Shown here: piece by piece, positions 13,237 through 36,077 of the stretch
How the letters are laid out: each line of letters starts with the position of its first letter
Position numbering within the stretch: the stretch's first letter is position 1
NCBI RefSeq assembly: GCF_001006045.1
Contig: NZ_CP011267.1
Location: 1,674,001 to 1,738,000 of the forward strand
Direction of reading: 5' to 3'
DNA length: 64,000 bases
Source: Geoglobus ahangari
Lineage (GTDB): Archaea; Halobacteriota; Archaeoglobi; Archaeoglobales; Archaeoglobaceae
The notes under the pieces: generated by a model
The model's database searches: none
Told to the model about the DNA's origin: nothing
What the model saw: the letters and a program-made list of their open reading frames with translations, nothing else
Position numbers and translations under genes: made by a program

Positions 13237-15102
13237 CTAATTATTCCTCATCCTCACTGCAGCGGAAACAAAGCCTCCGACGATCATCATCGCAGATCCG
13301 ATCCACACAAGGAAGATCAGCGGAATGAGGTGCACCTCGAGGAATATCTGGTTCTGCGAGAACCCGCTCATGGCAACGTAGTAGTCCTTAAAGGGCGTGC
13401 TGAGTATGTCAACACCGTTCACTACCCTGTCCTCACGCATCAGGTTGTAGAACTTCGTCGTCGGGGTTACCGTGCCCTTGTAAACCCCGTTCTCGTAGAT
13501 GTCTATCCTGGCAACGATGTCCACGCTCTCCGGTGTTGACACCTGGTCGAGTGAGACGAGCTCGAGCCTTATGTCTCCAAAGTGCTTTGAGTGTATGACG
13601 GCGCTCTCGTCGTGTATGCCGAGATGGACGTTCTGGTACACCTCGTCGTACATCCACGAGCCTGCAACACCAACAGAGATCAGGAGCACCCCGATGTGCA
13701 CGAGGTAGCCTCCAAGCTTTCTCGGATTTCTTGCGTCTGCAGGCTTGAACGTCATCAGGTGGCTGGTTATGGAGAACGCGGCAATTCCAGCGGCGAGTGC
13801 GACGAGAGGCATTCCGAGGACAAGATACGTTGCGGCAAGAGATGCAAGGCCAACAGGAGTTGCGACGATCAGAATCCTCTTTGTCCTCTCCGGACTGTAG
13901 ACCCAGCCCAGCGATATGCAGATGCCGAGAAGAAGCGTGAGAATTGCCGCGAGCGGCGTTTCCACCCTGTCATAGTACGCCCTGTCAATCGACACTCCCT
14001 CGAACACCGATGGGGTGAGCGTCCCAATGAGGACGGTCACGGTTGAGAGGATCAGCAGGAGGATGTTCAGGAAGACCGCGAAGTCCCTGCTCAGCAGCTC
14101 GTAACCCTCCTCGCTGAAGAAGTCCTTGCGCTTCGAGTACACGTAGAGAGCGAGCAGCCCGGCAGCGGCGATCAGGATCAGGTACAGCCACCCCTCCGGG
14201 TTCTCACCGAACGCGTGGACGCTCTCTATCACGCCGCTCCTCGTTATGAAAGTTGCGAGGACGACGAGCGCAAACGAGACGTAGGCGAGCCAGTAGTTCC
14301 ACCTCGAGAACTGGCGCTGCCTCATTATGCCGTGGAGCAGCCCAGTGACCGTGAGCCACGGGAGAAGCGAGGCGTTCTCCACGGGATCCCACGCCCAGAA
14401 CCCACCCCACCCGAGGGTTTTGTATGCCCACCACGCCCCGAGGAAGATTCCGATCGTCAGGAAAAGCCATGAAATCAGCGCCCAGAGCCTCGCCCTCAGG
14501 TGCCACCCCTCAGACTTCAGGTACGCGGAGGCGATGGCGAGGGCGAATGGAAGAGTTGCTCCAGCATAACCGAGAAAGACCGTGGGCGGGTGCAGGGCCA
14601 TCTCAGGAGTTCTCAGCAGCGGGTTGAGCCCGTAACCCTCATGCGGGAAGTACTCCCACCTGTAAAAGGGGTTTGAAAACGTCAGGAGAACAAGGAGGAA
14701 AAACGAGGCGACTCCGCTTGAGATCGCGAGCGTCATGGCGGAGAGCCTGTCCTTTTTTTCGACCTTCAGAAAGAGGACGTTGAGTATCGAGAGGAAGAGG
14801 ATCCAGAGGAGGAGGGAACCTTCCCTGCCGGCCCAGACGGCGCTTATCGTATAGGCGAGGTTCAGGTGTGTGTCTGAGTAGCTGTAGACGTACTTGACGT
14901 TGAAGTCCCTGACGATGAAGTAGTAGGTGAGGAGGAGGTAGGCCAGCGCGACGAGGACTGTGTACGCGTAAACCGTCCTCTCACCGTTCAGCGCGAGCCT
15001 TCTCGCTCGCTTTCCCTTCGAGGTGATGGAACCGTAAAAGCTGTAGGCAGAGTACACGCTGGCAACGAAGGCGAGAACTGCGAGCAGGTAGCCGATGTCC
15101 AT
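13237..15102 (-). CDS. ccmF: Cytochrome c heme lyase subunit CcmF
   Basis: This 621-residue polytopic membrane protein has about 14-15 hydrophobic segments and the tryptophan-rich heme-handling WWD motif GGFWAWDPVENASLLPW. YYFPHEGYGLNP-like and MALHPPTVFLGYAG segments precede it, both typical of CcmF/CcsA proteins. The C-terminal extracytoplasmic domain (about 450-590) and a last helix match CcmF. It receives heme from CcmE and attaches it to CxxCH motifs of c-type cytochromes. It overlaps the upstream ccmE by 1 nt. No ccmABC or thioredoxin-like partner lies in this window. Confidence 0.9.
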   Translation of the reverse strand: MDIGYLLAVLAFVASVYSAYSFYGSITSKGKRARRLALNGERTVYAYTVLVALAYLLLTYYFIVRDFNVKYVYSYSDTHLNLAYTISAVWAGREGSLLLWILFLSILNVLFLKVEKKDRLSAMTLAISSGVASFFLLVLLTFSNPFYRWEYFPHEGYGLNPLLRTPEMALHPPTVFLGYAGATLPFALAIASAYLKSEGWHLRARLWALISWLFLTIGIFLGAWWAYKTLGWGGFWAWDPVENASLLPWLTVTGLLHGIMRQRQFSRWNYWLAYVSFALVVLATFITRSGVIESVHAFGENPEGWLYLILIAAAGLLALYVYSKRKDFFSEEGYELLSRDFAVFLNILLLILSTVTVLIGTLTPSVFEGVSIDRAYYDRVETPLAAILTLLLGICISLGWVYSPERTKRILIVATPVGLASLAATYLVLGMPLVALAAGIAAFSITSHLMTFKPADARNPRKLGGYLVHIGVLLISVGVAGSWMYDEVYQNVHLGIHDESAVIHSKHFGDIRLELVSLDQVSTPESVDIVARIDIYENGVYKGTVTPTTKFYNLMREDRVVNGVDILSTPFKDYYVAMSGFSQNQIFLEVHLIPLIFLVWIGSAMMIVGGFVSAAVRMRNN

Positions 15103-15491
15103 CAGCTCACCTCTTTGTTCTCACCCACCTGGTACTTGCTCGGACACTTGAGCAAAAGCTCTTCGGCGTAAAACACACCGTCCCTGTAATCGCCCTTAAC
15201 AACAGCAGGAATCCCCTCCTGATAGTTTGAGACCGCGCCCGTGTACTTGACGACGATCGTGTTTTTACCGTCGGTGAGCTTGAACACCCTCGTGTTGTTC
15301 TCAAAGAAATACACGGTCGAGTTGGGAACTATCGTGCCGTTGACCTGAACGTTTTCAGCGTATCCCTTTTCCATCACCTGGGTTACCGTGAGATAGGGGC
15401 TTATGCCTTGGTTGAAAGACACTATAACGAGTATGGAAAACGCAATCAGCGATACGCCGATAAGGAGCTTTATTTTGCCGCTTTTGTCCAT
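15102..15491 (-). CDS. ccmE: Heme chaperone CcmE, CxxxY type
   Basis: I choose ATG 15491 (MDKSGKIKLL) because TTTATATTGA at 15511-15520 is placed for a leaderless start there. The open frame runs further upstream but would enter the sRNA gene. The 129-residue product has one N-terminal membrane helix (about 8-27), an OB-fold body and the C-terminal heme-binding motif CPSKY. The heme-binding residue is therefore Cys (CxxxY), not the HxxxY of E. coli CcmE; this variant is known in archaea and some deltaproteobacteria. It carries heme to the CcmF encoded next. Confidence 0.87.
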   Translation of the reverse strand: MDKSGKIKLLIGVSLIAFSILVIVSFNQGISPYLTVTQVMEKGYAENVQVNGTIVPNSTVYFFENNTRVFKLTDGKNTIVVKYTGAVSNYQEGIPAVVKGDYRDGVFYAEELLLKCPSKYQVGENKEVS

Positions 15492-15545
15492 GGTATTTAC
15501 TGTGTTACTGTCAATATAAAGCTTTTTCATAACTATTAAGCATTT

Positions 15546-15612
15546 AAGATGGCTCAGCACTCAAGACCCTCATCATCGCTTTCAGCGGGGCCCTTTCATC
15601 ATCGCCACCAGA
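15546..15612 (-). ncRNA. C/D box sRNA, predicted guide for 2'-O-methylation of tRNA-Leu(CAA) C34
   Basis: Reading the minus strand, all elements are present in order. They are C box ATGATGA (15602-15596), a 10-nt guide AAGGGCCCCG, D' box CTGA (15585-15582), a 5-nt spacer, C' box ATGATGA (15576-15570), a 12-nt guide GGGTCTTGAGTG, and D box CTGA (15557-15554). GGTGGC before C pairs with GCCATC after D, giving a terminal stem. A TATA-like TTTTAAATAG at 15629-15638 predicts transcription from about 15608. The D guide is complementary to ACUCAAGAUCC, as expected in the anticodon loop of archaeal tRNA-Leu(CAA); the nucleotide opposite position N+5 is wobble C34. I could not place the D' target. It lies directly upstream of ccmE on the same strand. 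Confidence 0.85.
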
Positions 15613-15663
15613 ATCTTCTGAGCATGGCTATTTAAAAGATGCCGTCAAAAGCCAGAAAAATTT

Positions 15664-35639: not shown

Positions 35640-36077
35640 TCACCCCTGGAACTCGAACGTCTTCTTCACACCAACATCCGATATCACACTGAGCCTCACA
35701 TCTCCGCTGAGCTGGGGGGTGTAGACGTACAGCGTCGCGGTCTCTCCGGGCTTTATCGAGACCTTGTCCGAGGTGAAGTCCACAACTGTTCCGTTCAGCA
35801 TGACTGTGAGGGTCTTGTTGGTTGTGTAAAGCTCCTCAGTCCCCGTGTTTTTCAGGTAGATTATGTACGCTCCAAGCGTTGAGTTGTACACAACATTAAC
35901 AGGGTCGTTTATTATCTCGAAGTCGGTGCCCACGAGCTTCTTGAGGTTCTCCCCCTGCTCGTTCGCCTCTATTGCGATCTTCTGGACTGTGATGAACATC
36001 ACCGCTGATGCTGATGAGGCGATGATCACCGCTGTTATGAAGATGATCAGGTGTGTGGCAACCTCACCGAATCCCAT
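35640..36077 (-). CDS. flaG: Archaellum stator protein FlaG/ArlG
   Basis: This 145-residue protein starts MGFGEVATHLIIFITAVIIASS, an N-terminal membrane helix with an archaellin-like start but no prepilin cleavage motif. A beta-sandwich domain outside the membrane follows (YIIYLKNTGTEELYTTNKTLTV). FlaG forms filaments with FlaF that anchor the motor to the S-layer. It overlaps neither neighbour but spacing is only 1 nt to flaF, so translation is coupled. Confidence 0.88.
   Translation of the reverse strand: MGFGEVATHLIIFITAVIIASSASAVMFITVQKIAIEANEQGENLKKLVGTDFEIINDPVNVVYNSTLGAYIIYLKNTGTEELYTTNKTLTVMLNGTVVDFTSDKVSIKPGETATLYVYTPQLSGDVRLSVISDVGVKKTFEFQG

Follow-up and report, generated by a model that had tools for sequence, protein, structure and literature searches.

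A small RNA (sRNA) gene of the box C/D type lies on the minus strand of the window, which is the whole 64,000-nucleotide stretch of Geoglobus ahangari DNA that was analysed. On that strand it immediately precedes ccmE and ccmF, and a DUF22 gene is divergent from it. The longest CcmE-like open reading frame (15102-15560, minus strand) has a GTG start at 15560-15558 that overlaps the end of the D guide, and the true start of this gene is probably a downstream ATG. The features of the sRNA are as follows, with the basis of each in brackets.

15629..15636, minus strand: TATA-box-like TTTAAATA (start 34 nt upstream of box C)
15604..15609, minus strand: 5' strand of the terminal stem, GGUGGC (sequence, predicted fold; GGC/GCC-like ends in most homologues)
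15596..15602, minus strand: box C, AUGAUGA (sequence, Rfam alignment, homologues)
15586..15595, minus strand: D' guide, AAGGGCCCCG; probable target the variable arm GGGGU[CU]C of tRNA-Leu(UAA) and further Leu tRNAs
15582..15585, minus strand: box D', CUGA (sequence, homologues)
between D' and C', minus strand: spacer AAGCG, 5 nt (sequence)
15570..15576, minus strand: box C', AUGAUGA (sequence, homologues)
15558..15569, minus strand: D guide, GGGUCUUGAGUG; predicted target the anticodon loop of tRNA-Leu(CAA) and tRNA-Leu(UAA) (pairing with the tRNAs of the genome, conserved guide block across Archaea)
15554..15557, minus strand: box D, CUGA (sequence, homologues)
15548..15553, minus strand: 3' strand of the terminal stem, GCCAUC (sequence, predicted fold)

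Read 5' to 3' on the minus strand from 15609 to 15548, the RNA is GGUGGC-G-AUGAUGA-AAGGGCCCCG-CUGA-AAGCG-AUGAUGA-GGGUCUUGAGUG-CUGA-GCCAUC. The C, D', C' and D boxes, the 5-nt spacer, the terminal stem and the upstream TATA-like box, which had been noticed in a preliminary description of this DNA, were all located on this strand. The order of the boxes (RUGAUGA, CUGA, UGAUGA, CUGA), the guides of 8-12 nt and the short spacing are those of archaeal box C/D guide RNAs, and the stem GGUGGC/GCCAUC closes the C/D kink-turn. The same class is also recognised by complementarity to a stable RNA with the target nucleotide at N+5, which was found for the D guide with the Leu tRNAs of this genome, and by maintenance of boxes and guide in relatives, which was found over 34 genomes.

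A search for the pattern C-N8-13-D'-N2-9-C' gave seven matches in the 1.77 Mb genome and none for the reversed control. Five other canonical C-D'-C' matches (G000:C1 214218-, 347065-, 378601+, 391834+ and 1047859+) are probable C/D box sRNAs with different guides. A C-D'-C'-like match at window positions 35990-36017 on the plus strand (TGATGAACATCACCGCTGATGCTGATGA) has no CUGA box D at the right distance and is probably due to chance.

Scanning with Rfam at the gathering score gave no match for the sRNA. With the threshold relaxed, the whole snoPyro_CD model could be aligned (E=2.1e-7); its 41.1 bits fall short of the gathering score of 45. The boxes and layout of the sRNA align along the full models of both snoPyro_CD (RF00095) and sR1 (RF01152), but the guides differ from those of the two families and the scores are below the gathering thresholds, and for these two reasons the sRNA was not filed under either of them. 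Upstream of box C, an all-A/T hexamer starting at 31-34 nt was present in 26 of 30 homologues, and the A/T fraction was 0.96 at -30. A score below the Rfam cut-off would agree with a chance match or a decayed pseudogene, but the boxes, guide, spacing and promoter element are kept over 34 genomes and the guide block is conserved across Archaea, which makes this explanation extremely improbable. The feature is a genuine archaeal C/D box guide RNA of an already known type, and it is ancient.

The DNA search found the sRNA in 32 of 35 Archaeoglobaceae genomes and in one of two genomes of the sister family; homologues were present in 34 of the 60 genomes searched, G. ahangari included. Genes adjoining the sRNA vary between genera, and ccmF follows it in nine genomes, among them G. 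ahangari. In four relatives (G032:C18, G023:C4, G008:C10 and G019:C17) the sRNA is about 0.8-5 kb from the tRNA-Leu(CAA) gene, and in G. ahangari the two are far apart.

All 45 tRNA genes of G. ahangari were located and read. The tRNA-Leu(CAA) gene (G000:C1:1030076-1030160) has the anticodon arm GUGGA-CUCAAGA-UCCAC, and the D guide pairs with it from A31 to C41 over 11 bp with one G-U (G10 with U39), C34 facing guide nucleotide 5. This agrees with the preliminary description, which had predicted the loop, the single G-U and the fifth nucleotide facing C34 before the tRNA gene was read: the gene has the loop A31-CUCAAGA-UCC just as foreseen, and the loop mismatch that had been set in advance as counting against the assignment is absent. 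With tRNA-Leu(UAA) (arm CAGGG-CUUAAGA-CCCUG), the same 11 positions pair with two G-U, and nucleotide 34 again faces guide nucleotide 5. The N+5 nucleotide is thus opposite position 34 of tRNA-Leu(CAA)/(UAA), as expected of a Pyrococcus-type tRNA-Leu wobble guide. In the paired region the two tRNAs differ at positions 31 (A/G), 34 (C/U) and 39 (U/C); the guide bases facing them are U, G and G, and these pair with both Leu tRNAs in every Archaeoglobaceae genome from which both tRNAs were recovered. Because U or G sits wherever the two differ, one guide can serve both. The earlier naming of tRNA-Leu(CAA) as the target is supported but was incomplete, as tRNA-Leu(UAA) fits about equally.

Taken singly, the match of the D guide is only moderately unusual: 5 of 400 shuffled guides did as well against all tRNAs of the genome, and 7 of 100 against its tRNAs and rRNAs together. 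The strength of the case is conservation, and with it the predicted assignment to the two Leu tRNAs is well supported. An rRNA target for this guide was rejected, since pairing of positions 2-11 with any one LSU site was confined to fewer than 10% of genomes.

The guide might serve tRNA-Leu(CAA) only, its pairing with tRNA-Leu(UAA) being a by-product of two loops with few differences. C34 and A31 of tRNA-Leu(CAA) are paired by G-C and U-A while in tRNA-Leu(UAA) the target nucleotide itself can be paired only by G-U, and Pyrococcus has been reported with separate sRNAs for the two tRNAs (PMC7994747). But a guide for tRNA-Leu(CAA) alone would be expected to carry A opposite U39, as in most other archaea, and the G seen in all Archaeoglobaceae checked suits C39 of tRNA-Leu(UAA). 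A pattern search of the G. ahangari genome for box D guides (TTAAG or TTGAG in register) gave no separate tRNA-Leu(UAA) guide, as it returned only the present locus and one TTTGAG site, which is unfit for tRNA-Leu(UAA). So we consider service to tRNA-Leu(CAA) alone unlikely and keep both Leu tRNAs as predicted targets. Equally improbable is that C34 of tRNA-Ser(CGA) is an additional biological target. The anticodon arm of this tRNA in G. ahangari is the same as that of tRNA-Leu(CAA) over 27-43 except G35, which allows 11 bp with two G-U, but guide U6 is already required for A35 of Leu and there was no sign of adaptation to Ser, the Ser tRNA having been retrieved and compared in nine genomes only.

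Positions 2-7 and 9-12 of the D guide are invariant or nearly so over the 34 homologues. Position 8, which faces G37, varies among C (13 homologues), T (11) and A (10), so in ten genomes the guide is mismatched to G37, and G37 itself is invariant in the Leu tRNAs facing this position. Methanothrix guides likewise carry A here. The m1G base is unable to form a normal Watson-Crick pair, and a substrate tRNA already bearing m1G37 would put little constraint on guide position 8. We infer that the freedom of this position reflects such a substrate. In H. volcanii, Leu tRNAs 1-5 all carry m1G37 (PMC2584109).

Position 10 of the guide faces nucleotide 39. In other Archaea whose two tRNAs both have U39, an A occupies this guide position in most cases and forms a Watson-Crick pair with either tRNA. 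The guide of G036, a genome of the sister family, also carries A there, and U39 is found in both Leu tRNAs of G037, another member of that family. In Archaeoglobaceae, C39 in tRNA-Leu(UAA) goes together with G at guide position 10, a matching change. One Pyrodictiaceae genome has G at position 10 although both tRNAs have U39; therefore the change is not strictly compensatory.

Some Archaeoglobaceae tRNA-Leu(CAA) or tRNA-Leu(UAA) genes (L137, L138, L158-L162, L170 and L171) contain a short intron that follows position 37. The tRNA-Leu(CAA) introns in five Archaeoglobaceae genomes begin with ACCY, therefore the guide pairs with precursor and spliced tRNA-Leu(CAA) alike; with introns in tRNA-Leu(UAA), the end of the duplex is sometimes broken. 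Nitrosopumilales introns after position 37 mostly start with AUC or AUCC, with a similar effect on pairing.

The block TGATGAGGNTNTTGAGTNCTGA, which runs from box C' through the guide to box D with 19 fixed bases, was scanned over about 85,000 prokaryote genomes. It was found in at least 119 stretches, and by our own estimate about two matches would be expected by chance in a collection of that size. Among the stretches listed, 79 of 80 were labelled archaeal. These 80 included 33 from Nitrososphaeria, 19 from Archaeoglobi, 7 from Micrarchaeota and 6 from Methanotrichales or Methanosarcinales, together with single or few stretches from Thermoplasmata, Methanomassiliicoccales, Thermococcaceae, Pyrodictiaceae, Fervidicoccus, Heimdallarchaeum, Methanofastidiosia and others; Nitrosopumilales and Methanothrix are also among the listed archaeal taxa. 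One stretch labelled Proteobacteria (L256, SXOM01000476.1) is nearly identical to the Nitrosopumilales-type copy and is probably misbinned archaeal DNA. The tRNA-Leu genes recovered from genomes bearing the block pair with it. Likeness between phyla rests in this box C'-guide-box D block, and the D' half of the sRNA differs between them.

The D' guide has the core CCCC-R-GG at positions 2-8, followed by two positions (9 and 10) that drift. Of the 34 homologues, 21 carry G and 13 carry A at position 6, and several genera contain both states. When matches in the G. ahangari genome were ordered by score, several 8-bp sites came first, LSU positions 1684 and 1256 among them; with 7 pairs, the variable arm of tRNA-Leu(UAA) stood lower. 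Among the tRNAs and the 16S and 23S rRNA of this genome, sites fitting both types of D' guide were present in four Leu tRNAs and also in five other tRNAs, there within the T arm, and in neither rRNA; in relatives, the rRNA compared was the LSU.

Each of the 31 tRNA-Leu(UAA) variable arms that were read has AGGGGUCCG. Pairing of D' positions 2-8 with this arm is present in 32 of 32 genomes (position 6 being G in 19 and A in 13), and 23 of these also pair at position 1; this set is G. ahangari with 31 family members, G015 and G036, which lack the pairing, being set aside. The last G of GGGG in the arm is opposite the fifth guide nucleotide. The variable arm was taken as the most likely D' target because position 6 is A in 13 of the 34 homologues and G in the others, bases that can both be paired by U and by no other target nucleotide. 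On the same grounds CGGGGCCCUU is the less likely target, as those 13 homologues carry GGACCCC and not GGGCCCC. The T-arm GGGGUUC of the five other tRNAs is compatible, yet weaker, and was not adopted. With a duplex of just 7-8 bp, the G. ahangari D' guide by itself does not outscore its shuffles, 90 of 400 of which were as good against the Leu tRNAs; for the A-type guide of relatives, 9 of 400 were. The preliminary description had not placed the D' target; the Leu variable arm GGGGU[CU]C is now a likely site. Taken by itself, the chance is somewhat better than even that the D' guide brings a methyl group to the final G of GGGG in the variable arm of the same Leu tRNAs, a prediction with moderate support where that for the D target is good.

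If instead the D' guide were aimed at 23S rRNA, at position 1684 (UGGGGCCCGU) or 1256 (CGGGGCUCAA), the sRNA would be a mixed tRNA/rRNA guide. These are the best-scoring rRNA sites of G. ahangari, slightly above the tRNA-Leu arm, and they are themselves conserved (1256 identical in 15 of 15 genomes, 1684 in 12 of 15). But A at guide position 6, present in 13 of 32 genomes, faces C in both and breaks the pairing, so that full pairing is seen in 19 of 32 genomes against 32 of 32 for tRNA-Leu; no rRNA site of G. ahangari pairs with both D' guide types. Both sites were rejected as a common D' target for the break with A-type guides, and we regard a 23S target as improbable.

The predicted fold of the RNA joins AGGGCCC with GGGUCUU. 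So the D' core might be kept through intramolecular pairing with the D guide, in a regulatory or protective fold, without a target of its own. This would leave the invariant C2 unexplained. Over seven pairs, self-pairing has 7% mismatches and 27% G-U, against 0% and 8.5% for the tRNA-Leu arm, and the set of seven is complete in 21 of 32 genomes, compared with 32 of 32 for the arm. That the core is conserved for self-pairing is therefore quite doubtful, and the variable arm is kept as the favoured D' target in Archaeoglobaceae.

In other lineages the second guide may take other partners. The D' guides of L219 (Thermococcaceae), L289 (Pyrodictiaceae) and L296 (another Thermoproteota) have CUCGGC- or CUCGGG-like stretches, which are complementary to the tRNA-Leu D arm (GCCGAGC / GCCCGAGC), and from this complementarity the D arm is a possible second tRNA-Leu site in these lineages. 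A rule that both guides always hit tRNA-Leu lacks support, as Nitrosopumilales D' guides have no convincing match to their own tRNA-Leu and those of Methanothrix and Thermoplasmata match over 5-7 bp only. We can only tentatively speculate that a single C/D sRNA for tRNA-Leu(UUR) dates from early Archaea, with a wobble guide that stayed nearly constant from Nitrosopumilales and Micrarchaeota to Archaeoglobi, free only opposite m1G37, and with a second guide that drifted among sites of one tRNA. In Archaeoglobaceae this site would be the variable arm, whereas in Thermococcaceae, Pyrodictiaceae and another Thermoproteota genome it may be the D arm.

Guides for the Leu wobble position were already predicted in Pyrococcus (PMC7994747), as the preliminary description had said of other archaea in general. 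The Pyrococcus guides and the present sRNA have in common the C/D architecture, the N+5 rule and position 34 of Leu tRNAs; the Leu targets there are listed under separate sRNAs, whereas here one guide fits both, a comparison drawn from published descriptions of the Pyrococcus guides. The single Thermococcaceae locus seen (L219) has a D' guide unlike that of the present sRNA. Among the snoRNAdb predictions for P. furiosus, as cited in PMC7668247, are C34 of tRNA-Leu(CAA) and G47 of tRNA-Leu(UAA). As cited there, these concern the same tRNA pair, and the second site, also a G near the variable arm, may correspond to the site proposed here. Mass spectrometry of P. furiosus tRNA, with incomplete coverage, did not detect the predicted methylations at C34 of tRNA-Leu(CAA) and G47 of tRNA-Leu(UAA) (PMC7668247), and for H. 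volcanii Cm34 is listed for Met and Trp only (PMC2584109); both results count against the proposed methylations. The guide in the pre-tRNA-Trp intron (sR50; Cm34, Um39) is like the present sRNA in that one C/D RNA is assigned two methylation sites within a single tRNA, one of them the wobble base, but sR50 sits in a tRNA intron and the present sRNA is a free-standing gene that would act in trans. In Pyrococcus, then, a wobble target and a second tRNA-Leu site were both predicted before. Added here are the Archaeoglobaceae family, the fit to two tRNAs with matching changes, the lack of constraint opposite G37, the wide occurrence of the guide block in Archaea and, for D', a target that conservation favours; a literature search without most subscription journals turned up no publication on these points.

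The anatomy of the sRNA, its pairing with the tRNAs of the genome, its conservation and the promoter-like element are read directly from the DNA. From them we propose, with a probability of about 0.8, that the locus encodes a C/D guide of about 60 nt which would be transcribed from its own promoter and assembled into an L7Ae-Nop5-fibrillarin RNP. The D guide would steer this RNP to 2'-O-methylate C34 of tRNA-Leu(CAA) and U34 of tRNA-Leu(UAA), the UUR-decoding Leu tRNAs, and the free variation opposite G37 is in keeping with m1G37 being present on the substrate beforehand. Under the D' guide, the final G of GGGG in the variable arm of these tRNAs would likely receive a second methylation.

Many archaeal C/D guides are aimed at rRNA, and many are without a known target. 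In bacteria a protein enzyme, TrmL, methylates this position in the two corresponding tRNAs. With wobble-capable bases at each site where the two isoacceptors differ, the present sRNA clearly illustrates how a single guide can be suited to two tRNAs. Since the position opposite G37 varies, the order in which m1G37 and Nm34 are formed can be put to the test. The guide block is recognisable over much of the archaeal domain, which points to strong and old selection on wobble 2'-O-methylation in the reading of the Leu codons UUA and UUG.
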